Shown here: positions 112 to 40,729 of the stretch, in pieces
Numbering within the stretch: position 1 is the first letter of the stretch
Layout: the number at the start of each line of letters is the position of its first letter
Origin: an uncultured Myxococcales bacterium
GTDB taxonomy: Bacteria > Myxococcota_A > UBA9042 > DTJE01
Assembly (NCBI GenBank): GCA_903847405.1
Contig: CAINDP010000200.1
Coordinates: 1-60,499, forward strand
Reading direction: 5' to 3'
DNA length: 60,499 nt
The notes under the pieces: generated by a model
Seen by the model: only the letters and a program-made list of their open reading frames with translations
What the model was told of the DNA's origin: nothing
The model's database searches: none
Position numbers and translations under genes: made by a program

Positions 112-1188
112 TCAGTCGGCCGCGAGGGCCTGGGCGGCGAAGTAGGCCTGGAGCGCGGACAGGAGGTCCTCCATGTCGCCCTCCATGATCGACTCCAGCT
201 TGTACAGCGTCAGGCCGATCCGGTGGTCCGTCAGGCGATTCTGGGGGAAGTTGTAGGTCCGGATGCGCTCGGAACGGTCGCCGGTGCCCACCATGGCGCG
301 CCGGGCGTCCTGCTCCAGTTTCTGGGCCTCCTCGCGGGCAGCCTCGGCCATGCGCGCCCGGAGGACCTTCATGGCCTTCGCGCGGTTCTTCAACTGGGAG
401 CGCTCGTCCTGGCAGGCGACCACGATCCCGGTCGGGATGTGGGTCAGGCGCACGGCCGAGTCGGTCTTGTTGATGTGCTGGCCACCGGCCCCGCTGGCCC
501 GGTACGTGTCGACCCGCAGGTCGCCTTCGTCGATCTTGATGTCCACGTCCTCGACTTCCGGCAGGATCGCCACCGTGACCGCCGACGTGTGGATCCGCCC
601 CTGGGCCTCGGTTTCCGGCACGCGCTGGACCCGGTGGACCCCGCCCTCGAACTTGAGGTGGCTGTAGACGCGCCGCCCGCGGATCTGGGCGATGACTTCC
701 TTCACGCCCTTCAGTTCCGTTTCGGAAATGCTGAGGATTACGACCTCCCACTTCCGGCGCTCGGCGAAGCGGGCGTACATGCGGAACAGGTCCGCGGCGA
801 ACAGGGCCGCCTCGTCGCCCCCCGTCCCGGCCCGGATTTCCAGGAAGATGTCCTTCTTGTCCAGGGGGTCCTCGGGGACCAGCAACTGGATCAGGCGCTT
901 TTCCAGTTCCTCGCGGCGGGGACGCAGGCGCCCCAGTTCGTCCTCGGCCATTTCCCGCAGGCCGGCGTCGCTCTTCGACAGTTCCTCGTTTTCCTGGATG
1001 TCCCGGGCGACGTCCCGGTATTCGCGGTAGGCGTTGACCCGATCTTCCAGGTCCGCGCGCTCCTTCGACACTTCGCGAAGCAGGTCGGGGTTCGAGTAGA
1101 CCTCCGGGCGACCCATGTCGTCCTCGAGGCGCCGGAAGCGGGTTTCGACCTCCTCCAGCCGCCGCAGTGCGCCGACCAGGTCGATCAT
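112..1188 (-). CDS. prfA: Peptide chain release factor 1 (RF1)
   Basis: This class I release factor recognises UAA and UAG in the ribosomal A site and triggers hydrolysis of peptidyl-tRNA in the cytoplasm. The 358-residue length is normal for RF1. The GGQ catalytic loop is at about residues 235-237 within GAGGQH. The codon-reading PxT motif is PET at about 191-193 ([10 protein letters not shown]), where RF2 would have SPF. The start codon overlaps the stop of the DUF1385 gene as ATGA, so the two are translationally coupled in an rpmE-DUF1385-prfA operon. No prmC methyltransferase gene follows before the window edge. Identification is secure. Confidence 0.97.
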
Positions 1189-2228
1189 GACGGTCCCTCC
1201 ACGCCCGCGGGGCAGAGGGCCGCTTCAAACTCGGCGATGGACCCGAAGGTGAGGATCCGCTCGGGCACCCCGGCAACCGCACCCAGGGAGGCCGGAGACA
1301 GGGCGGCCCGCAGGGCGACGATGGCGATTTCCTGCTGGGATGCGTCCGGCCGCTGGGTCGTGATGCCCTGGACCCACACGCCCGGCGCGGCGAGGATCCG
1401 CCCCAGAAGGCTGCCCTCCTTCTTGCCGGCGAACCGGATCAGTTCGTACGACAGGCCCGCCACCGGCAGGATCAGGGGCAGCTTGATCGCGACGAACAAG
1501 GCCTGGTTCAGGATGCGGATGTCCGAAACCTGGGGGATGAACGGGAAGATGGCCGCGAACACGAAGATGCTGACCGCGATGACCGTGACCATGAAGGCCG
1601 TCCCGCAGCGCGCGTGGGCCGTCGGAAAACTGGCCAGGTTCGGGACCGTCAGCGGAAGGCGGTGCTCGAAGGCGTGGACCGCCTGGTGCTCGGCGCCGTG
1701 GTACTCGAACACCCGGCGCATGTCCTTCATCTTGGACATCATGTAGACGAAGCCCAGGAAGATGCTGAACTTCACGACGCCGTCCAGCAGGTGGAACGAC
1801 ATCGCCGTGCCGCCCGAAAGCGCCTCGCTGCCCACGGCCAGGCCGAACGCCCACGTCAGGACGTGCGGGATCACCGCGAACAGGAAGAAGCCGAAGGCCA
1901 TCGAGAAGACGAGGGTCAGGCCCAGCGCCAGGGGCGTGGCCGTCCCGGACGGTCGCTCCTCCTCGGGCAGGGCGTTTTCGGCGGCGAAGGAAAGGGCCGA
2001 CATGCCGTCGTACATGGTTTCGACGAGGACGGCGATGCCCCGCAGCCCGGGCTTCGTCAACAAGGGGTACTGGGCTGCGATGCGATGGGCCAGCCGTACG
2101 CGGACGATGATGGAGCCGTCGGGTTTGCGCACGGCGACGCTGGTGGCGCCGGGAGCGCGCATCATCACGCCCTCGACCACCGCCTGGCCGCCTACCGCAA
2201 CAGGCTGTTCGAGGCCCGCGGGTTTCAC
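1185..2228 (-). CDS. DUF1385 family multipass membrane protein
   Basis: A 347-residue membrane protein of the DUF1385 (YqhQ-like) family. It begins near a [12 protein letters not shown] motif typical of the family N-terminus. Hydrophobic segments follow at roughly 90-125, 140-160, 210-235 and 250-270, with the conserved EYHGAEHQ and HARCGT motifs in between; the His/Cys content suggests metal binding, but the function is unknown. The GTG start at 2228 overlaps the rpmE stop as GTGA. The open frame upstream is rpmE read in another frame, which rules out a longer protein. The stop overlaps the prfA start. A gene of this family beside rpmE and prfA is also seen in other phyla, which supports the call. 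Confidence 0.85.
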
Positions 2229-2452
2229 GGGACGACGTTCGTCTTGATGAGCGTGCGGCCCGCGTACTTGCGGTTGAACCGATCGACGCGGCCCTCGGTG
2301 TCGATGATCTTCTGGCGACCCGTGAAGAACGGGTGGCACGAAGAGCAGATTTCCACCGGGTAGTCGCCGCGCGTGGAATGCGTCTCGATGACGCTCCCGC
2401 AGGCGCAGCTGATCTTCGTAGGCTTGTTGGCGGGATGGATTCCCTTTTTCAT
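2225..2452 (-). CDS. rpmE: 50S ribosomal protein L31, zinc-binding type
   Basis: A 75-residue L31 protein of the large ribosomal subunit. It has the zinc-binding cysteines of the C+ type (CAC near residues 16-18 and CSSC about 20 residues later) followed by the family hallmark HPFFTGRQK and [10 protein letters not shown]. The ATG at 2452 gives the standard MKKGIHP start and follows an AGGAGG ribosome binding site; an upstream in-frame ATG would add 20 residues that no L31 has. It is the first gene of the operon and has a good sigma70-like promoter at 2500-2528. Zinc-type L31 is often exchanged for a zinc-free paralogue during zinc limitation, but no such paralogue is visible here. Confidence 0.96.
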
Positions 2453-2645: not shown

Positions 2646-4529
2646 ATGGTGACCGACGGCAACGGCGTCTGCCCGCACTGCGAAGCCTACACCGGGCCCG
2701 TGGGCACGCCGTGCATCCGCCCCGAATGCGTCAAGAAGAACTACCTCTGCATCCCGATCCGCTGGTACGACGCCGCCAAGGCGTACTCGGCCCGCAAGAA
2801 CAAGCCGATCGACCCGCTGGTCGGGCGCATGATCGAACGCTACCTGCTGGCCGCGAACATCGGCGAAGGCGGCATGGGCTCGGTCTACGTCGCCATCCAG
2901 AAACCGCTGTTCCGCGAGGTGGCGCTGAAACTGATCAGCGACCTGGACCTGAACCGCCACTCGGTCGGACGGTTCGAGCGCGAGGCGCGGGCGATTTCGC
3001 TGCTGGACCATCCGAACATCGTCAAGATCCACGACTACGGCGTCGGCGACCTGGACAAGAAGGTCCCGTACATGGCGCTGGAGTTCCTGCGCCACGGCCG
3101 CACCCTGCGCAAGGCGTTCGCGGCTGCGGCAGGGACCGGGAAGGTCGAAGGCGCGCTGGTCCTGACGATCTTCCGGCAGGTCCTGAACGCCCTGGGGGCC
3201 GCCCACGCCGTCGGCATCGTCCACCGCGACGTCAAGCCCGAAAACGTGATGGTCGTGCCGGTCCACGGCGACCCGAACCTGGTGAAGGTCCTGGATTTCG
3301 GCCTGGCGCGCCTGGATTCGGACGATTCGACCTTCGAGGGGGACGCCATCGCATCGGGGCGGCTGGCTGGCACCCCCTACTACATGGCCCCCGAGCAGAT
3401 CCCGCGGAAGGGGGCGTCCGGGGACATCGACGGCCGGGCGGACCTGTACGCTGTGACCGTGATGCTGTTCGAGATCCTGACGGGCGTCCGGCCCTTCGAC
3501 GGGGATTCGCCCCTGGCCGTCCTGGCCCGGAAGCTGGACCCGTCGTTCGACCCGATGAACCAGCCCGAGGCCAAGGCCCTGTCCAAGGGGATCCGCACGT
3601 TCCTGGCGAAGGGTCTTTCGCGCGTGCCCGCGGACCGTTTCGCGTCGGCGTCCCAGATGCTGGAAGCGCTGGAATCGGTCCTGGAGACCCGGGCCTCCGC
3701 GGTGGGACTGGTCGTGCTGGAGGCCCCGTCGTCGTCGGATCGAATCGAGGTCCCCAGCGACCAGGCGTCCGCGTCGACGCCCCTGGCACCCCTGCTGCCT
3801 CCGGACGAACCGGACCCGCCGGCCCCGGCAGGCGGAGCGGCGTCCCAGGTTCCACAATCGCCGTTCTTCAAGGAAAGCCGGTTCAAGAAGCATTCGGGGG
3901 GGCTGGAACTGGACATGCCCGAGGTGATCGGGGCGGCGGTCCCCGCGTCGTCCACCGCGATGGCGGCGGCCGGAACGGCCCATCCGAAGGGCCCTGCGAC
4001 AGCGGGCGGCTCCGAGCAGCCCTCGGGATCCGCGACGCCGGCGGGACTGCCGACCGGGAAGAGTGGCCCGCACACGCCGGTCAGGACCCCGACGGCCCGC
4101 ATTTCCACCCCGAAGGGGCTGTCGGACGCCGCGATGCGGACGATCGCCTGGGCGCTGGCGGGAGTGGTCGTGCTGGCCATCCTGCTGTCCCTGGCGCCCT
4201 GGGTGATCGTCCAGACCCGGGTGGCGGCCGCCGAGGAGGCCATGTCGGCCCTGCGGATCCGGCTGGTCCAGGGGGGACGGTTCATCGGCTTCGAAAGCGG
4301 CGCCCTGCGACCGACCGGGGGAGCCGACTACCTGGTCCTGGGCGCCACGGGAACCTCCGAGGCGGGCGGCCCCCTGAACGATCCCTGGGGCAACCCCTAC
4401 CGGGTGCGCTACCTGCTGGACAAGAGGTCCTACCTGCTGCGATCCGACGGGCCCGACGGGGAGGAAGGTCCCTGCAGGGGCGACGAACCCCAGGCGGACG
4501 ACCTCTGCGTGCTGCTCGCCGGACGCTGA
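2646..4529 (+). CDS. Hanks-type Ser/Thr kinase with C-terminal pseudopilin-like domain
   Basis: A 627-residue membrane kinase. The N-terminus holds five cysteines (9, 12, 23, 28, 35) that could form a small zinc knuckle. The kinase domain follows with G-loop GEGGMG (73-78), Lys95, HRDVKPEN (Asp195), DFG (217-219) and an APEQ motif, so it should be active. After a Pro/Ala-rich linker there is one transmembrane helix (about 498-522), then an extracytoplasmic segment whose NDPWGNPY (from about 578) and SDGPDG motifs match the C-terminal half of type II secretion major pseudopilins (GspG). The membrane helix runs into an amphipathic helix as in pseudopilins. Kinase function is certain; the role of the pseudopilin-like sensor domain is inference. 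The 3' end overlaps the convergent amidase gene by 100 bp. Confidence 0.88.
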   Translation: MVTDGNGVCPHCEAYTGPVGTPCIRPECVKKNYLCIPIRWYDAAKAYSARKNKPIDPLVGRMIERYLLAANIGEGGMGSVYVAIQKPLFREVALKLISDLDLNRHSVGRFEREARAISLLDHPNIVKIHDYGVGDLDKKVPYMALEFLRHGRTLRKAFAAAAGTGKVEGALVLTIFRQVLNALGAAHAVGIVHRDVKPENVMVVPVHGDPNLVKVLDFGLARLDSDDSTFEGDAIASGRLAGTPYYMAPEQIPRKGASGDIDGRADLYAVTVMLFEILTGVRPFDGDSPLAVLARKLDPSFDPMNQPEAKALSKGIRTFLAKGLSRVPADRFASASQMLEALESVLETRASAVGLVVLEAPSSSDRIEVPSDQASASTPLAPLLPPDEPDPPAPAGGAASQVPQSPFFKESRFKKHSGGLELDMPEVIGAAVPASSTAMAAAGTAHPKGPATAGGSEQPSGSATPAGLPTGKSGPHTPVRTPTARISTPKGLSDAAMRTIAWALAGVVVLAILLSLAPWVIVQTRVAAAEEAMSALRIRLVQGGRFIGFESGALRPTGGADYLVLGATGTSEAGGPLNDPWGNPYRVRYLLDKRSYLLRSDGPDGEEGPCRGDEPQADDLCVLLAGR

Positions 4530-7147
4530 CCTCGCCGGAACCCAAGAGCCAGGGCCAGGCCCGCCAGCACCAGGCATGCCGGTCCTGCGGCCGTGCCTCG
4601 ACCGCCGGCACACCCGCCGCCCGCCCGCCCCACGGATTCCGGCAGGGCCCCGTCCCCGGCCGGGACGTCGGAGGCGCAGGCATCGTCGGCACCCGGAACC
4701 GTCGCGTCCCGCGCGTCCGCCCCTGCATCCGGGACGTCCGGGTCGGCCTGCAGGTCCGCGGGAACCGCAAGGTCCGGGCCCGCGTCGTCGGACGACGGCC
4801 CCTCGTCCAGGATCGCGATGTCCCCCACCGTCGCCGCGTCATCGTCCCCGTCGCCGACGGAGGCCCCGGGCGGCGTCGGGGTCCCGCAGAAGGCCAGCAT
4901 CCGCTCCATCAGCAGGCCGGCCGCCCCCCGATCGACCACGGTTTCGAAGGGGAACCCCAGCAGGATCGACCGGCCCGCGCCCTGGTCCCGGGACACGCCG
5001 GCCACCGCCCCGCCGGCGTAGTGCAGGATGGAACGGGCCCCCGCCGCCGGCGCCAGGACATCGGGGTACTTCGCGTCGTACGTGCCCCCGGTCCCGTCGT
5101 CGAAGGCGAAGGCCGGAACCCCTTGCAAGGGACCGTCCGCAGCGGCGTCCACCTGACGGGTCCCGGCGTCATCGTCCACGAACGCGGCGCCCAGGCGATC
5201 GCCCAGGAAGGCCCGGTCGGAATCCGCCCCCAGGGCGCCCAGGTCCCAGGCCACCTCGGTCCCCGACGCCAGCAGGCATCCGCCCCGGTCCAGGAAGGCG
5301 GCCGCCCGGGCCTGCTCGGCATCCGACAGCGCCTCCGATTCCGACGACTCCCGACCCAGGATCCAGTCCACGACCCGGTAGGGTTCCAGGGAAACGTCCC
5401 CGTCCACGATCGCCTCGTTCGAGGCGCCGTCGAAGGCCCACCCGCCGGCCGCCGCCCCCGCGATCGCGCGCCCGTGGTCCACCGCGTAGTCGTGGTGGTT
5501 CGCATCCTCGCGGACCCACGCGTCCACCCGGTCGAACCCGTTGACCAACAGGACGTCGGCGGGCCCCCCATCGACCCGCCGGCGCGCCCCGACGGCCTCG
5601 GAGGCCGGCGATTCGCCGCCCTCGTTCAGGGACGACACCCGGACGAACACCGGCGTACCGTCCCCGGACGGGGGCAGCCCCAGCGAGGTTCCCTGGACCA
5701 CGGTGCCCCCGTCGAAGCCCCGCCCGCCCAGGGCCACGTACACCCGGTATCCGCGGGCCGTCGGCACCGGGCGCCACGACGCCAGCAGGCTGCCCGCACC
5801 GTCGTTGCGCAGGGCCAGGTGCGTCGGAGGCTCGGGCGGAAACGGCGTGCCGGGCGCCAGGACGTCCTGGATCGCGCGCGCCACGCCCCGGGCCAGCAGG
5901 TGGCGGAACCGCGGGTCGTGGAGGCTGCGGTTGTCGGGGTATCGATGCCCCGGGGCAGCCGCCACGCCGTCGAAGAACGCGGCCTCCACCAGGAACCCCG
6001 GAATGCCGTCCAGGGGCCGCAGCTCCCCGAAGTTGGCCACCAGGTCGCCGCCGTCGTTCCAGGCCGGATCCCACTCTGCCCGCAGGTCCTGGACGATCCT
6101 GTCCTGGACGGACGACTGCAGGGCGGCGCTGCCCGGGGGCTGGTCGCAGGCCGCGGGGTCCAGCGGCTGCCAGCGGACGCCCGTCCCGCAGTTGTAGCGG
6201 TAAGTGGACGTGCCGCTGGAGGTCGTGGCGCCCCCGGCGTTGGCGTGCAGCGAAACGAACAGGTCGGCGCCGATCCCGTTGGCCCAGACAGGCCGCACGG
6301 TCACGTCGCCCTGGCCCTCGATGCCCGCGGCCCCTGCGAACGGCAGCCAGTGGACCGCCCCCATCTGCCACCGCGGCAGGCCCGTGGCGCCGTCGACCCC
6401 GCCTCCCAGGCGCACCGCGTCGGCGATGACGTAGCAGTCCCCCTGGGCGGGCGCCTCGACGACCACCGATGCCGGCCCCGCCTCGAACCACAACCGCGCC
6501 AGGTAGACCCACGTGGACCCGTCGCGCCGCTGGTCCACCTCGAAGTCGCTGCGGCCCCCGGCGTGGACGACGCCGAACCGCGCGTCCGGGCAGCGGTTCG
6601 GTCCCGCCGCATACCGCACCTGCACCCAGTAGTCGCCGGCAGCCGGGACCTCCACCGACCACACGGCAGCGCCGCCCGCAGGCGCGTGCAGCGCACGGTA
6701 CGTTCCACCGTATCCCAGGCCCGCCGTGGCGCCGGCCTGCCACGGACCCTGCTCGGCATATCCCGCGTCACCGTCGTCCAGCACGACCTCGTGCGCCTGC
6801 CGGTCCAGTTCCCGCGCCACGTGGACCTTCGCTCCCGCCTGCCGCAGCAGGGGCACCAGATGGTCCGCGCACGTTTCAGCGTTCAGCAGATCCTCGACGA
6901 TCGCGTCGCACCCGCCGCAGAAGTCCCACCGCCAGGGGTCGCGCTGGAAGGCGCCGTCGGCGATCAGCCATCCGTGGCCGGGACTGACGGCGATGTGGAC
7001 GCCCTGCAGCGCCGAGCCCCAGGGGAAGGCCAGGGCCCGGGGGCTCCAGCCCGAAGCCGGCGGCTGGAACTCCTGCGCCGTCGCGACGGGACCGACCGCG
7101 ACGACGGCAAGGACGATCGCGATGAACACGGCGCTCCGGCCTGCCAC
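4430..7147 (-). CDS. Secreted N-acetylmuramoyl-L-alanine amidase with golvesin-like insert and MYXO-CTERM-like tail
   Basis: A 905-residue exported protein with a signal peptide ending near AQEF (residue 25). An Amidase_3-type zinc hydrolase fold starts at SPGHG (about residues 55-60) and resumes at SLHANA (about 300) and FLVEAAF (about 385). The gap holds a golvesin/xly-like beta domain (about 130-255, starting GYGGTYR). A fibronectin type III domain (about 445-525) and a domain of unknown fold follow, then an Asp-rich linker and a Gly/Cys motif, hydrophobic stretch and RRGQR (about 845-880), which resembles the MYXO-CTERM sorting signal. About 30 residues extend past that signal into the kinase 3' end. 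It likely cleaves murein amide bonds at the cell surface. The distal ligand assignments are by eye. Confidence 0.8.
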   Translation of the reverse strand: MAGRSAVFIAIVLAVVAVGPVATAQEFQPPASGWSPRALAFPWGSALQGVHIAVSPGHGWLIADGAFQRDPWRWDFCGGCDAIVEDLLNAETCADHLVPLLRQAGAKVHVARELDRQAHEVVLDDGDAGYAEQGPWQAGATAGLGYGGTYRALHAPAGGAAVWSVEVPAAGDYWVQVRYAAGPNRCPDARFGVVHAGGRSDFEVDQRRDGSTWVYLARLWFEAGPASVVVEAPAQGDCYVIADAVRLGGGVDGATGLPRWQMGAVHWLPFAGAAGIEGQGDVTVRPVWANGIGADLFVSLHANAGGATTSSGTSTYRYNCGTGVRWQPLDPAACDQPPGSAALQSSVQDRIVQDLRAEWDPAWNDGGDLVANFGELRPLDGIPGFLVEAAFFDGVAAAPGHRYPDNRSLHDPRFRHLLARGVARAIQDVLAPGTPFPPEPPTHLALRNDGAGSLLASWRPVPTARGYRVYVALGGRGFDGGTVVQGTSLGLPPSGDGTPVFVRVSSLNEGGESPASEAVGARRRVDGGPADVLLVNGFDRVDAWVREDANHHDYAVDHGRAIAGAAAGGWAFDGASNEAIVDGDVSLEPYRVVDWILGRESSESEALSDAEQARAAAFLDRGGCLLASGTEVAWDLGALGADSDRAFLGDRLGAAFVDDDAGTRQVDAAADGPLQGVPAFAFDDGTGGTYDAKYPDVLAPAAGARSILHYAGGAVAGVSRDQGAGRSILLGFPFETVVDRGAAGLLMERMLAFCGTPTPPGASVGDGDDDAATVGDIAILDEGPSSDDAGPDLAVPADLQADPDVPDAGADARDATVPGADDACASDVPAGDGALPESVGRAGGGCAGGRGTAAGPACLVLAGLALALGFRRGQRPASSTQRSSAWGSSPLQGPSSPSGPSDRSR

Positions 7148-7286: not shown

Positions 7287-8693
7287 ATGACGATCGCCCT
7301 CGCCACGACCCTGGTTCTGCTGGGGTTCCATGTCGTGCTGGCGCCGATGGCCTGCGTCCACGTCCTGCTGAACAAGCGCCAGCCCTACGCGGCCGCCCTG
7401 TGGTTCGTGATCGTGTCGGCCGTGCCCTTCTTCGGCCCGATGTTCTACTGGTTCTTCGGGATCAACCGCATCGCTCGGAAGGCCCGCCGGCGGATCAAGC
7501 CCGGGGCCCTGAAGGACGTAGGCCACATCCGGGTTCCCCCGGACCTGGAACCGCTGCGACGCGTCGGCGACACCGTGGCGCGGTATCCCCTGGTCAACGG
7601 GAACCGGATCGACCTGCTGGTGAACGGCGACGAAGCGTACCCGGCCATGCTGGCCGCCATCGAATCGGCGCGGCACAGCCTGGGCATCGTGTCGTACATC
7701 TTCGACGAGGACGACGTCGCGGAACGGTTCGCGACGGCACTGCGGGACGCCGCCAGCCGGGGCGTGGCCGTGCGGCTGCTGGTGGACGGCATGGGCGCCT
7801 GGGGCATGGGCCCGCGCCTGCGCCGCAGCCTGATGTCCACCGGGGGACGCGTGGCCGCCTTCTGGCCCCAGGGACGGTTCCTGAAGCACCCCAGCCTGAA
7901 CCTGCGCAACCACCGCAAGATCCTGATCGCCGACGGCCGCCTGGGCTTCACGGGCGGGCTCAACGTCAGCGCCCGGCACGTGACGCAGGACGGCGACGCG
8001 TTCCCGAAATCCAGCGACGTGCATTTCCGCCTGGAGGGGCCCGTCGTCGAGCACCTGGCATCGACCTTCGCCGACGACTGGGAACTGGCCACCGGCGAGG
8101 TGCTCAAGGGCCCCGCATGGTTCCCGGACCTCGTGCCCACCGGGGACGTGGTTGCGCGCGGGATCGCGTCGGGCCCGGACCGCACGATGGGACGCCTCCA
8201 CTCCCTGCTGCTGGGCGCGCTGCGGACCGCGCGCACGCGGGTGGACCTGATGTCGCCCTACTTCATCCCGGACCAGGCGATTCTGGAAGCCATGCGCACG
8301 GCCAGCCGCTCCGGGGTCCGCGTGCGGTTGATGCTGCCCCGGCGGGCCGACCACCGTTTCATGAACTGGGCCGCCCGGGCCTATCTGTGGGAGGTCGTCG
8401 AGGCCGGCGTGGAGGTCTACGAGGTCCTGCCCGAGTTCGTGCACGGCAAGCTGGCGGTGGTGGACGGCCAGTGGGTGATGTTCGGCTCGTCGAACCTGGA
8501 CGCCCGCTCGTTCCGCCTGAACTTCGAGTTCAACGTCGAGGCCTACTCGGAAACCCTGGCCCAGCGCGTGCACGAATACCTGAACCACTACCGGGCGAGG
8601 GCCGAGCGCGTCACGATCCGCAGCCTGAAGGCCGAACCCGTGGGAGTGCGCCTGCGGAACGCCTTCGTCAAGCTGTTCTCGCCGTACCTGTGA
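7287..8693 (+). CDS. cls: Cardiolipin synthase, phospholipase D superfamily
   Basis: This 468-residue membrane enzyme condenses phosphatidylglycerol (or related donors) into cardiolipin. Two N-terminal transmembrane segments (about 3-25 and 35-58) precede two PLD domains. Both HKD signatures are complete: HRKILIADGRLGFTGGLN near residue 210 and HGKLAVVDGQWVMFGSSNLD near 388. The fold, length and two membrane anchors match the ClsA-type family, so activity is expected. It is monocistronic, divergent from the amidase gene and convergent with the glycosyltransferase gene 24 bp beyond its stop. With pssA (50573-51379) it forms the phospholipid enzyme set of the window. The substrate could instead be phosphatidylethanolamine, as in ClsC, which sequence alone does not settle. 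Confidence 0.93.
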   Translation: MTIALATTLVLLGFHVVLAPMACVHVLLNKRQPYAAALWFVIVSAVPFFGPMFYWFFGINRIARKARRRIKPGALKDVGHIRVPPDLEPLRRVGDTVARYPLVNGNRIDLLVNGDEAYPAMLAAIESARHSLGIVSYIFDEDDVAERFATALRDAASRGVAVRLLVDGMGAWGMGPRLRRSLMSTGGRVAAFWPQGRFLKHPSLNLRNHRKILIADGRLGFTGGLNVSARHVTQDGDAFPKSSDVHFRLEGPVVEHLASTFADDWELATGEVLKGPAWFPDLVPTGDVVARGIASGPDRTMGRLHSLLLGALRTARTRVDLMSPYFIPDQAILEAMRTASRSGVRVRLMLPRRADHRFMNWAARAYLWEVVEAGVEVYEVLPEFVHGKLAVVDGQWVMFGSSNLDARSFRLNFEFNVEAYSETLAQRVHEYLNHYRARAERVTIRSLKAEPVGVRLRNAFVKLFSPYL

Positions 8694-10252: not shown

Positions 10253-10334
10253 GATGCCCGGGGCTTCTGCTATCCTTCGCCGGGTTGTTGGAACCCACTC
10301 GAACCGGCTTCGTCTCCGAGGAGGCACCTCCCCG

Positions 10335-11027
<693 letters not shown>

Positions 11028-11030
11028 TCG

Positions 11031-11945
11031 ATGGCCGGCAACGGTCCGAACGCCCTGCGGCAGGGGCTCCACCTCCTGGGCCAGGGATTCAAGGGCCTCA
11101 CGGTGTCGCCGGGCCAGACGGTGGCCTGCGTGCTGTCGCTGGCGGTGGCCGGGTGCCTCGTGGTCCTGTCCGCCTCCTTCGGTTCCCTGACCGTGGACGT
11201 GCTGGACCGGGCGGGCCGCAGCGCGAAGGTCCTGGTGTACCTGAAGGACGAGGTTCCGGCCGAGCGCGTCCAGGACCTGATGACGCGGGTGGGCGCCCGC
11301 AGCGACGTCGAGGCGGTCGAGTACCTGACCCGCGAGCAGGACCGGGCGCACAACGCCGACCTGCTGCCGCGGGACGTCATGGCGACGCTCCCCGCGGAGG
11401 CGGTCCCGGGCCAGCACGGCCTGGAGGTCACGTTCCGGGCAGGGGCCGGCGGGACGGCGGGAATCGGGGCGCTGGCCTCGTTCCTGAAGGCACTGGAGGG
11501 CGTGGACGTGGTGGCCGAACCGCCGGTCGGATCGGGACGCCTGCGCGCCCTGGCCGCCGCGGTGGGCTTCCTGCGGACCGTGCTGATGATGCTGGCGGCC
11601 CTGCTGCTGGTGGGCACGCTGTTCTTCGTGGTCGGGACCCTGACGCGGACGATGGAGCGCCGGAAGGACGAAATGAACATCCTGCGCCTGCTGGGGGCGA
11701 CGGACGCCTTCGTCCGGGCGCCCATCGTCATCCAGGGCGTCCTGCAGGGCGTCGCCGGCCTGGCCCTGGGCTCCATCGCCGCGATCCTGGTGTCCGGGGC
11801 GGTCAACGCGTGGCTTTCGGTGGAATTCGACGTCGCGGTGCGCCTGCCGGCCTGGCCGGGACGCGTGCTGCCCCTGGCCGTGGCCGGCGGGCTCCTGCTG
11901 GGGGTCGCCGGCGCCTTCATCGCCACGGCACGGCGGGAGGCGTAG
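11031..11945 (+). CDS. ftsX: Cell division protein FtsX
   Basis: A 304-residue membrane partner of FtsE. A first transmembrane helix (about 27-50) is followed by an extracytoplasmic domain of about 130 residues with the family pattern VYLKDEVPAERVQDL, then three more helices in the last third separated by the conserved MERRKDEMNILRLLGAT loop that contacts FtsE. This is the standard four-helix FtsX topology. The extracytoplasmic domain is the part that binds the EnvC-type activator, whose gene begins three bases after the ftsX stop, so the complex is encoded contiguously. Confidence 0.95.
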   Translation: MAGNGPNALRQGLHLLGQGFKGLTVSPGQTVACVLSLAVAGCLVVLSASFGSLTVDVLDRAGRSAKVLVYLKDEVPAERVQDLMTRVGARSDVEAVEYLTREQDRAHNADLLPRDVMATLPAEAVPGQHGLEVTFRAGAGGTAGIGALASFLKALEGVDVVAEPPVGSGRLRALAAAVGFLRTVLMMLAALLLVGTLFFVVGTLTRTMERRKDEMNILRLLGATDAFVRAPIVIQGVLQGVAGLALGSIAAILVSGAVNAWLSVEFDVAVRLPAWPGRVLPLAVAGGLLLGVAGAFIATARREA

Positions 11946-11948
11946 GGC

Positions 11949-13085
11949 GTGAGGCGTGCGAATCGGATGCGCCCCGGGCGGCTGCCGGCCTTCGCAATCG
12001 CGTCCCTCTGGATTCTCGGCACCGTCCCGTCGATCGCCGCCCAGCCCCCCTCCCCCCTTCCCTCCGGTCCGCGCAGCCTGCCGGACCTGCTGAAGGCGGA
12101 GGCGTCCATCCTGGACACGCTGGACACCGCCGTGTTCGAGGCCCGTCGGGCCGAGTCCCAGATGAAGGCCGCGGAAACCGACCGGAAGGCCGCGGAAGCA
12201 CGCATGGCGACGGCAGAATCCGCCCTGCGGTCGGCCCGGGGGCGGGAAGGCGAGGCACGGGCCCGGCTGCAGGCCACCCTGCGCCTGCACCGGACGGCCG
12301 AGCCCTTCGGATCGGCCGTGGTCCAGGTTCTGCTGGGTGACGACGAGGATCTGTCCCGGCGGGCGGCGCTGCTGGCCCGACTGTCGGCGCGGCAGGCCGC
12401 CGAGGTCGCCGCGATCACCGAGTCCGTGGCCGTCGCCGAATCCGCCGAGTTCCGGGCGGGCATCGAGCGGGCGGCAGCCTGGGCCCTGGCGCGGACCGGC
12501 CGGGACGCCCGGACGCGCCTGGACGAGGAAGTCGGCCTGCACCGGGCCCTCCTGGACGCCCTGGAACGGGACCGGTCCCTGCAGACCCGGCGCGCCGCCG
12601 AAATGACGGAGTCCGTTCGGCAGTTGGCGCGGACGATCGCCGAGCGACGCAGCGACCGGCCGGGGCCCGTCGATTTCGATCGCCTGAAGGGCCGCGTGAA
12701 GGTTCCCCTGGCCGGCGCCCGGGTCGCCGTCGCGTTCGGCGACGTGATCCACCCCGTGTTCAAGACCCGGACGCCCCACCCCGGCCTGACGATGGAGTTC
12801 CCCGGCGCCCAGTCCCGCAACATCCGGGTCGCGGCGTTCGGCCGTGTTGCCTGGGTCGGGCGGATGCGGGGCCTGGGGTCCACGGTCCTGGTCGACCACG
12901 CCTCGGGCTGGTTTTCGGTCTATGGCGGGCTGTCCGAGGTGAACCTGCCGGCAGGGACGGTCGTCCGGGAAGGCGACATCCTGGGCCGGGTGGCGCCGGG
13001 GCCCGGCGAGGCGGCGGTCCGCCTGTACTTCGAATTGCGCAAGGATGCCGAGGCGGTGGATCCGCGGCCCTACCTGGCGAAGTGA
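11949..13085 (+). CDS. envC: EnvC-like murein hydrolase activator with degenerate LytM domain
   Basis: A 378-residue periplasmic protein: signal peptide (about 1-31), a long Ala/Arg/Glu-rich coiled coil (about 40-225) and a C-terminal LytM/M23 fold. The C-terminal pattern VRLYFELRKDAEAVDPRPYL matches EnvC. The zinc ligands of active M23 peptidases are lost: HxGxD reads HPGLTM and the final HxH reads LYFE. Such degenerate LytM proteins activate amidases rather than cut murein themselves. The GTG start at 11949 follows ftsX by three bases. The FtsEX-EnvC pairing strongly supports a role in activating cell-separation amidases; the two amidases encoded in this window are candidate clients, by inference. 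Confidence 0.87.
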   Translation: MRRANRMRPGRLPAFAIASLWILGTVPSIAAQPPSPLPSGPRSLPDLLKAEASILDTLDTAVFEARRAESQMKAAETDRKAAEARMATAESALRSARGREGEARARLQATLRLHRTAEPFGSAVVQVLLGDDEDLSRRAALLARLSARQAAEVAAITESVAVAESAEFRAGIERAAAWALARTGRDARTRLDEEVGLHRALLDALERDRSLQTRRAAEMTESVRQLARTIAERRSDRPGPVDFDRLKGRVKVPLAGARVAVAFGDVIHPVFKTRTPHPGLTMEFPGAQSRNIRVAAFGRVAWVGRMRGLGSTVLVDHASGWFSVYGGLSEVNLPAGTVVREGDILGRVAPGPGEAAVRLYFELRKDAEAVDPRPYLAK

Positions 13086-38923: not shown

Positions 38924-40627
38924 TCAGAACACCTTCAGGTCCTTCACCTTCCCCATTCCGTCCTCCTTCTTCGGCGTCGGCGCGGGTGCCGGCGGCGCGC
39001 CCGGGGTCGGTGCGGAGGGGACGGCCGGGGCGGGGGCCACGCCCGGAGGCAGGGGCTTCCCGACGCCCGACGACAGGGCCATCTTCTTCAGCGACGTGGA
39101 CAGGGCGCCGTCCCGATCCGGGATGGCCTCGACCGTCGCGTCCCGATAGCCGCCCTTCCGGAAGGTGAACGTTTCCGCCGCCACGCCGTATGGGACGTCC
39201 ACGGTCAGCGGCGTGTTGCCCAGGGTCCGGCCCCGCTGGACCACCTCGGCGCCGTCGGGGTCCGAACTGAAGCGCATGGACACCGTGGACGGTCGCGACG
39301 GCACGGCCGCCGGGGGGACCGCCGACACCGCCGTCGCCACCGGTGCGGCCACCGGCAAGGGCGCGTCGGTCGCCGGTCCGAGGATGCCCGTCGCCCACAG
39401 GCTGATCCCGAGGCCCGAGAACATCACCAGCAGCACCGCGGCGACCCAGGCCCCCTTGCGGCGGCGTGTCGCGGCCACCGGGACGCCGGCGACGGTCGCG
39501 GCCTCCAGCGGGGACCGCGGAACCGGGGTCGGCCGGGGCCCCTGGACGTACACGACGCGCTCGAACCGCCCCAGCAGCTTCGCCTCGACCTCGTTGATGG
39601 CGGCCACGAGGTCCGAGGCGTGGTGGAATCGCATCTCGGGCGATTTTTCCAGGCACTTCATGACCAGGGCCTCGACCTCCTCCGGCACCTCGATGTCCGG
39701 CCGGACCTCGGCCAGCGGCCTGGGCTGCTCCTGGACGTGCTGGATCAGGATGGCCAGCGGGTTTTCCGCGTCGAAGGGCGCGTTGCCGACCAGCATTTCG
39801 TAGGCGATGACGCCCAGGGCATAGAGGTCCGCCCGGTGGTCCACCGCCATCGATCGGCACTGCTCGGGCGCCATGTAACGGGGCGTGCCGAAGATCGTGC
39901 CGGCCTGCGTCACGGTGCCCTGGCGCTTGTCGGCCTCCCGCAGCTTGGCCACGCCGAAGTCCAGCACCTTCACGAAGTCCGGATCGTCGCCCACCTTGGT
40001 CAGGTATACGTTGTCGGGCTTGAGGTCCCGGTGGACGATGCCCTTCTCGTGGGCCTCGACCAGCGACGCGGCGATCTGCTTGAGGACGTGCATGGTGCGC
40101 CGGGCCGAAAACGTCTGGTCCCGCCGCAGGGCCTCCTCGAGGCTGCTGCCTTCCAGGAATTCCATGGCGAAGTAGAGGGTCGCGTCCTCGGCCTGGCCGA
40201 AGTCGAAGATTCGGATGGTGTTCGGATGGTTCAGGCGGCTGACCGCCAGCGCCTCGATCTTGAAGCGCTTGACGACCTTCTCGTCGCCGGCCAGTTCCCG
40301 CAGCAGCATCTTGACCGCGACGGTGCGGTCGATGCCGATCTGCCGGGCCCGGTAGACGATGCCCATCCCGCCGGCGCCGATGCGCGACAGGATTTCGAAC
40401 CGGCCGCTGATCGTGCGTCCCAGCATCGGATCGACGCCGGACGAAGGCGACGGCCCCGTTTCGGTCGCCGCGACGGCGGCCTCCACCCGGGCCCGGGTTT
40501 CCAGGTGATCCAGGGCCGTGGCCCGCTGGTCCGAGGGCACGTCGTGGGCCGGTTCCGGGCGGGTGGGAGATTCGGGCCGCTGGCCCTCCCCTTCCACGTC
40601 CCACCCCAGCGTCCGATCGTCCGCCAC
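38924..40627 (-). CDS. Hanks-type Ser/Thr kinase with C-terminal PEGA domain
   Basis: A 567-residue kinase. After an acidic N-terminal tail come the G-loop GAGGMG (84-89), Lys106, HRDLKPDN (Asp201), DFG (223-225) and MAPEQ. A single transmembrane helix (about 370-390) leads to an extracytoplasmic segment with a PEGA domain (about 425-490, SSDPDGAEVVQRGRTLGNTPL) and a Pro/Ala-rich tail. PEGA domains are thought to bind surface components. The start is set at GTG 40627: an ATG at 40696 would lie upstream of the extended -10 element at 40657-40665. The tail ends GKVKDLKVF. Confidence 0.88.
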   Translation of the reverse strand: MADDRTLGWDVEGEGQRPESPTRPEPAHDVPSDQRATALDHLETRARVEAAVAATETGPSPSSGVDPMLGRTISGRFEILSRIGAGGMGIVYRARQIGIDRTVAVKMLLRELAGDEKVVKRFKIEALAVSRLNHPNTIRIFDFGQAEDATLYFAMEFLEGSSLEEALRRDQTFSARRTMHVLKQIAASLVEAHEKGIVHRDLKPDNVYLTKVGDDPDFVKVLDFGVAKLREADKRQGTVTQAGTIFGTPRYMAPEQCRSMAVDHRADLYALGVIAYEMLVGNAPFDAENPLAILIQHVQEQPRPLAEVRPDIEVPEEVEALVMKCLEKSPEMRFHHASDLVAAINEVEAKLLGRFERVVYVQGPRPTPVPRSPLEAATVAGVPVAATRRRKGAWVAAVLLVMFSGLGISLWATGILGPATDAPLPVAAPVATAVSAVPPAAVPSRPSTVSMRFSSDPDGAEVVQRGRTLGNTPLTVDVPYGVAAETFTFRKGGYRDATVEAIPDRDGALSTSLKKMALSSGVGKPLPPGVAPAPAVPSAPTPGAPPAPAPTPKKEDGMGKVKDLKVF

Positions 40628-40656
40628 GTGTCCAACCCGGTGCGCAACCGGTCGGG

Positions 40657-40665
40657 AATGTACCA
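40657..40665 (-). promoter_or_regulatory. Extended -10 element of PEGA-kinase gene
   Basis: On the minus strand TGGTACATT fits TGnTAnAnT. The expected start near 40650 falls between the ATG at 40696 and the GTG at 40627, favouring the GTG. Confidence 0.4.
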
Positions 40666-40729
40666 CAATCTCAGAAACCGCGCGGCATTGCGGCATTCCG
40701 GACCTTCGGTCCCGGCGTCACGGAGGCCT

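Follow-up and report, generated by a model that had tools for sequence, protein, structure and literature searches.

What does a bacterial receptor kinase carry on its outer side when the familiar sensor domains are missing? Bacterial receptor kinases use a limited set of known outer domains, and we know of no signal for most of them. The question is raised by a gene in a 60,499-nucleotide stretch of DNA from an uncultured Myxococcales bacterium (contig CAINDP010000200.1 of assembly GCA_903847405.1; here called the window). An earlier note on this DNA described the product as a Ser/Thr kinase fused to a domain like GspG, the major pseudopilin of type II secretion systems (T2SS), and suggested either a link to pseudopilus assembly or secretion or a borrowed calcium-binding fold.

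Domain layout of the kinase

The features of the gene, its 627-residue product and its neighbours are collected in Table 1. The catalytic part is that of a Hanks-type Ser/Thr kinase: its PF00069 score is 134 bits against a cut-off of 31.7, and the complete set of catalytic motifs reported in the earlier note could be located, with the P-loop (GEGGMGSV) at residue 73, VAxK (VALKL) at 92, HRDxKxxN (HRDVKPEN) at 193, DFG (DFGLAR) at 217 and APE (GTPYYMAPE) at 242. The single membrane helix was likewise recovered as a hydrophobic stretch, within which P518 aligns with P22 of pilins. It is followed by an extracytoplasmic domain of 110 residues with DPWGNPY and GPDG...DD motifs, both of which lie in the C-terminal segment as described (SDGPDG occupies residues 600-605). 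Two elements had been overlooked: a pair of C-terminal cysteines, considered below, and an N-terminal ribbon of four cysteines (C9, C12, C23 and C28), probably zinc-binding.

This layout resembles that of the PknB/PrkC-type membrane kinases (with PASTA, PEGA, TPR or WD40 domains), which have the same cytoplasmic Hanks-type kinase, juxtamembrane linker, one helix and small outer domain; the present protein differs in that its outer domain is pseudopilin-like. No Pfam match to a PASTA or PEGA outer domain was obtained anywhere in the 627 residues. A second Ser/Thr kinase in the window (38927-40696, minus strand) has a PEGA domain, the commoner architecture. We found no earlier description of a kinase with a pseudopilin-like outer domain: pilin domains go unmentioned in the main text of three surveys and reviews of bacterial Ser/Thr kinases (PMC2877116, PMC11032199, PMC6213207), and searches for Pkinase with T2SSG, or for a pseudopilin-like domain with a sensor, gave nothing relevant in the literature, subscription papers and supplements aside.

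Table 1. Coordinates in the window of the kinase gene, the parts of its product and the neighbouring genes
Feature	Position	Strand	Basis
Receptor-type Ser/Thr kinase with pseudopilin-like C-terminal domain, 627 aa	2646..4529	+	Intact ORF, translation
N-terminal four-cysteine ribbon, C9-x2-C12-x10-C23-x4-C28	2670..2729	+	Sequence; conservation among the fusion kinases and in many sister kinases from the order
Protein kinase domain, residues 69-339, complete catalytic motifs	2850..3662	+	PF00069, E 7.6e-39
Low-complexity disordered juxtamembrane linker, proline/alanine-rich, residues 346-490	3681..4115	+	Fast-evolving: 36-55% identity, dN/dS 0.32-0.64
Single membrane helix, about residues 496-521	4131..4208	+	Hydropathy, alignments
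Region very probably homologous to GspG: membrane helix and extracytoplasmic domain	4116..4526	+	T2SSG in 7/7 orthologues; hhalign with shuffles; dN/dS
DPWGNPY motif, residues 579-585	4380..4400	+	D579 and W581 invariant in a 10-sequence alignment
Candidate calcium loop, S600-x-G-P-D604-G ... D618-D619-L-C621	4443..4508	+	S600, G602, D604 and D619 invariant
Divergent DUF1385 gene, approximate start	1188..2300	-	PF07136, E 2.4e-67; same neighbour in G001, G002, G008 and G009
Amidase_3 and Golvesin_C protein, convergent	4430..7147	-	Domain matches; same arrangement in G011
Cardiolipin synthase-type PLD enzyme	7287..8693	+	PF13091, E 5.2e-47
FtsE, FtsX and M23 peptidase genes, further conserved neighbours	10311..13085	+	Near the kinase also in G002, G008 and G009; FtsE in G011

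Relationship of the outer domain to GspG

Taken singly, the kinase scores below the family thresholds. PF08334 (T2SSG) matched it with E 0.03 for the whole protein and 0.0042 for the C-terminal segment (17.6 bits, cut-off 21), and TIGR01710 (GspG) with E 7e-4 (19.6 bits, curated cut-off 88.9). A search of the order placed orthologous fusions in 7 of the 13 genomes of the host's family, and the C-terminal domains of all seven match PF08334 weakly (best E 1.9e-4), two of them (in G008 and G002) passing the cut-off in the genome search. The motif is thus not confined to one protein; it occurs in seven orthologues that also give T2SSG signal. Weak T2SSG matches in three other large proteins (L058, L060 and L061) were judged to be due to chance.

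Profiles gave a stronger relationship. The C-terminal regions of the seven orthologous kinases (profile A1) were compared by hhalign with the GspG proteins of eight members of the order, taken from T2SSG matches above cut-off (profile A2), yielding a score of 60.8 (probability 96.7%), whereas none of 150 column shuffles exceeded 22.3. Most of this score is carried by the half from DPWG to DD (51.1 alone; shuffles at most 18.2), and the membrane-helix half is in register and weak (19.1 versus a shuffle maximum of 18.8). The best PDB sequence match of the seven-kinase profile is also a GspG (2kep, E 0.003). We regard homology of the outer domain to GspG as very likely. The proposed fusion is thus confirmed, with the single protein remaining under the T2SSG cut-off.

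The domain shares with GspG/PulG/EpsG (PF08334, TIGR01710) its size and order of elements, namely an N-terminal membrane helix with proline 22, DPWGNPY, and the GxD...D calcium residues. It differs in having a kinase in front, no prepilin peptidase site, no Glu5, a longer calcium loop set between two cysteines, and, for this protein, a score below the family cut-off.

Structure prediction, which the earlier note had proposed as a check, was less informative. An AlphaFold model from three kinase-only rows was poor (pLDDT 55.6) and had no useful PDB match; with GspG rows added to the alignment, the hybrid model reached pLDDT 65.0 and pTM 0.51. For this hybrid, every one of the top ten Foldseek matches was a GspG chain (E 0.2-0.8; no match fell below 0.001), and the top ten VIA-align rows were all pilins or pseudopilins, led by PulG (Z 5.5, not decisive, over 83 residues at 3.8 A). 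The model is closest to GspG, but this likeness is biased by the GspG rows in its alignment, so it is consistent with a pilin fold in a way that is not independent of the GspG assumption.

Pseudopilin features lost, and selection on what remains

The prepilin peptidase site (G followed by F/M-T-L-x-E) and Glu5 are absent from 7/7 kinases and present in 8/8 GspG proteins of the order. Since the cleavage motif and Glu5 are missing and a kinase is fused N-terminally, the domain cannot be an ordinary pseudopilin; with no cleavage site and a blocked N-terminus, it is very probably non-polymerising.

Might it then be a decayed or inert anchor, a remnant of a GspG fusion that merely tethers the kinase? 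The fusion is confined to one taxonomic family among the 379 Myxococcota genomes searched, and other tails, some of them PEGA-like, are found on sister kinases that share the N-terminal ribbon. However, the outer domain is under purifying selection as strong as that on the kinase domain (dN/dS 0.13 and 0.12 in two comparisons; the kinase has 0.11, the linker 0.32-0.64), its D, W, G and C positions are invariant across three genera, and its stand-alone relatives, described below, are likewise conserved. An inert anchor is accordingly very unlikely.

The architecture search for kinase-T2SSG fusions that had been suggested was productive within the family and empty elsewhere in the phylum: with the profile of the kinases' outer domain, no fused kinase outside the host family passed the E 0.001 threshold in the 379 genomes, a search that covered Myxococcota alone. 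The phylum-wide T2SSG survey speaks for the matches listed, and weak-scoring fusions elsewhere could be missed. Only two close kinases came back from a scan of 84,980 genomes with a single pattern seeded by the 627-residue kinase; the other matches were a Lentisphaerae kinase that is unrelated, true GspG proteins and a small number of further proteins with DPWGNPY. In the kinase tree the fusions fall into two well-supported groups whose union is unsupported, which leaves either one or two acquisitions.

The candidate calcium loop

Calcium in GspG 3G20 is coordinated by D117, T122 and D125 together with two backbone oxygens, within PGPDGVPNTEDD (PMC3396595). D604 and D619 of the kinase align with the ligands D117 and D125 (PMC3396595), and in one alignment of ten sequences, drawn from kinases, stand-alone proteins and GspG, D579, W581, S600, G602, D604 and D619 are all invariant. 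Since both calcium-site aspartates of GspG are kept, the alternative of a borrowed calcium-binding fold fits the data. Compared with GspG, the loop between the two aspartates has several extra residues, so the calcium geometry may differ; it lies between two invariant cysteines. These cysteines, C610 and C621, are present in 7/7 kinases and form a candidate disulfide; the order's own GspG also has two cysteines, one of them at another position. The first aspartate is replaced by N in many of the stand-alone relatives. We consider calcium binding by the outer domain more likely than not.

The same residues could be read as a convergent calcium loop and nothing else, in which case the C-terminus would hold a GxDG...DD loop of the PERCAL type known from bacterial peroxidases and no pseudopilin domain. 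Such a motif is known outside pseudopilins too (PMC3396595), the GxDG...DD loop is common to PERCAL and the kinase, and the profile score lies mostly in the C-terminal half (51.1 alone, 60.8 for the whole). However, the match takes in DPWG.PY, which is foreign to PERCAL, in the correct order and spacing, and a membrane helix in register with its proline at position 22. Moreover, the kinase loop has a longer GxD-to-DD spacing than the PERCAL motif (PMC3396595), so that the strict PERCAL spacing is not observed, and it has no [GN][TN] pair. Convergence is therefore quite improbable, and we retain descent from GspG.

GspG-type motifs also turned up in other odd carriers. A DPWGNPY...GPD segment is inserted in a Verrucomicrobiales POT-type peptide transporter (L039, 6513-8498), a Planctomycetota membrane protein (L037, 6409-7341) has DPWGNPYRL...GPDGRDELGSGDDI between membrane helices, and a lipoprotein-like protein (L053, G009:C66:6573-6836) ends in a GspG globular domain with no membrane helix (T2SSG E 1.6e-9).

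Stand-alone relatives paired with cNMP-binding proteins

Within the class, the kinase-derived profile also finds small proteins, encoded by open frames of about 165-255 codons and 130-170 residues long after choice of start codon. They consist of an N-terminal hydrophobic helix without a prepilin motif, followed by DxW..PY, S.G[PA][DN] and C...DD[IVL]C. A profile of these stand-alone proteins (A5) scored 80.5 by hhalign against the kinase outer domain and 49.0 against GspG, compared with 60.8 between the kinase domain and GspG and at most 22.3 for shuffles. Searching the 379 Myxococcota genomes with A5 recovered each of the seven kinases, and over 25 further genomes yielded stand-alone members. 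By these profile scores, the closest relatives of the kinase outer domain are stand-alone membrane proteins, not GspG. Some distant members (L186-L188) are without the cysteines, as in DPWGDPYRF...SSGPDG...DDD, and are close to GspG in sequence, forming a bridge between the stand-alone group and GspG.

The stand-alone proteins have the DxW..PY, S.G[PA][DN], C...DD[IVL]C pattern in common with the kinase domain; they differ in being separate genes, in their size, and in their partner, which has two cNMP-binding domains and is not a kinase. A homologue of this partner, a membrane protein, lies upstream in 24 of the 27 stand-alone loci, two PF00027 stretches occur in 6/6 of the partner proteins scanned, and the two genes overlap by 1-4 bases in 6 of 9 loci measured. 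The resulting two-gene unit, with the dual-cNMP-binding membrane protein first and the pseudopilin-like protein second, is found in many Myxococcota (L101-L104, L106-L108; L164-L189). Since the relatives stand beside cNMP-binding proteins, the kinase is a single instance of a domain found repeatedly beside signalling proteins. Text searches for a pairing of cNMP-binding and GspG-like proteins in the literature gave nothing relevant, and the novelty of this paired module may exceed that of the kinase.

Gene neighbourhood and the type II secretion system

Gene starts in the neighbourhood are approximate, having been assigned by a simple ORF caller. On the DUF1385 side of the kinase, prfA is also present in the window and in G002, G008 and G009. 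On the other side, the PLD enzyme gene (cls) is immediately downstream of the kinase in 4 of the 7 fusion genomes; in the window and in G011 the Amidase_3/Golvesin_C gene stands between the two in the opposite direction. The 3' ends of this gene and of the kinase gene share 100 bases (4430-4529), which fall within the codons of the calcium loop, and a similar convergent overlap in G011 measures about 94 bases. In this protein the Golvesin_C domain precedes or splits the Amidase_3 domain, and its C-terminal Cys-hydrophobic-Arg tail resembles a MYXO-CTERM sorting signal. In G004, which is without the fusion, cls and DUF1385 directly adjoin, indicating that the kinase was inserted or lost there. 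From the neighbourhood alone (cardiolipin synthase, amidase, FtsEX/M23), an output on the envelope or on cell separation might be guessed at, although we consider it doubtful.

Around the kinase gene, neither the window nor any fusion genome with examined flanks has a gsp gene. T2SSG was found above cut-off in 339 of the 379 Myxococcota genomes and T2SSF in 14/14 genomes of the order. The host itself has GspF, and its gspG (L074, G000:C6) is cut by a contig end, which explains why its genome gives no T2SSG match above cut-off. With a T2SS nearly universal in the phylum, its co-occurrence with the fusion, another of the proposed checks, is uninformative.

These observations bear on the suggested link to secretion, in which the outer domain would dock to, or be sampled by, the T2SS pseudopilus or inner-membrane platform, and the kinase would report on secretion. 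Genuine homology to the order's own GspG and the T2SS of the host speak for such a reporter. Against it, the flanks that were read contain no gsp gene, T2SSF occurs throughout the family but the fusion in only 7 of its 13 genomes, there is no Glu5 for helix docking and no cleavage site, and the nearest relatives belong to a family linked to signalling, being paired with cNMP-binding proteins and not with gsp genes. A specific link to secretion or pseudopilus assembly is not supported, and we consider a pseudopilus reporter unlikely.

A proposed pilin-derived module in signalling

Together, these results favour a bitopic receptor kinase in which a GspG-derived domain, freed from polymerisation, serves as a calcium-loop sensor or docking module, a reading that we hold to be the likely one. 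The kinase part would lie in the cytoplasm and the GspG-derived domain in the periplasm, joined by the one membrane helix. The domain would have been released from pseudopilus duty by the absence of the cleavage site and Glu5 and by the 490-residue kinase part before the helix. An ion or a partner might bind at the DPWG / GxD...DD face, with the putative C610-C621 disulfide as stabiliser, and binding would alter the dimer state through the membrane helix and so switch the kinase, the output falling perhaps on the envelope or on cell separation. By analogy with other receptor kinases, and given the selection acting on it, the outer domain would more plausibly than not be the input domain of the kinase. 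What the analysis establishes is the gene with its domains, the homology to GspG, the missing prepilin motif, the conserved calcium-site residues, purifying selection and kinship with a stand-alone family tied to cNMP-binding proteins; periplasmic location, calcium binding, the disulfide, sensing, kinase control and an envelope role are what we infer from these features.

More broadly, the domain is probably a GspG-derived module that senses calcium or the envelope and is tied to signalling of the kinase or cNMP type. We tentatively suggest that a pilin-derived periplasmic module may have been recruited in the Myxococcota as a general sensor or partner for cytoplasmic signalling, in one family as a fusion to a Hanks-type kinase and, widely, as a gene of its own in translational coupling with that of a dual-cNMP-binding membrane protein. 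The case lends itself to testing: calcium residues, cysteine pair and the comparison with GspG are all defined, and many Myxococcota have the domain again next to a cNMP-binding protein. If true, the proposal would add a class of signalling ectodomain, so far undescribed, for reading calcium in the periplasm or the state of the envelope, and a secretion pseudopilin domain that kept its calcium site and lost polymerisation would show how parts of a machine are turned into sensors.
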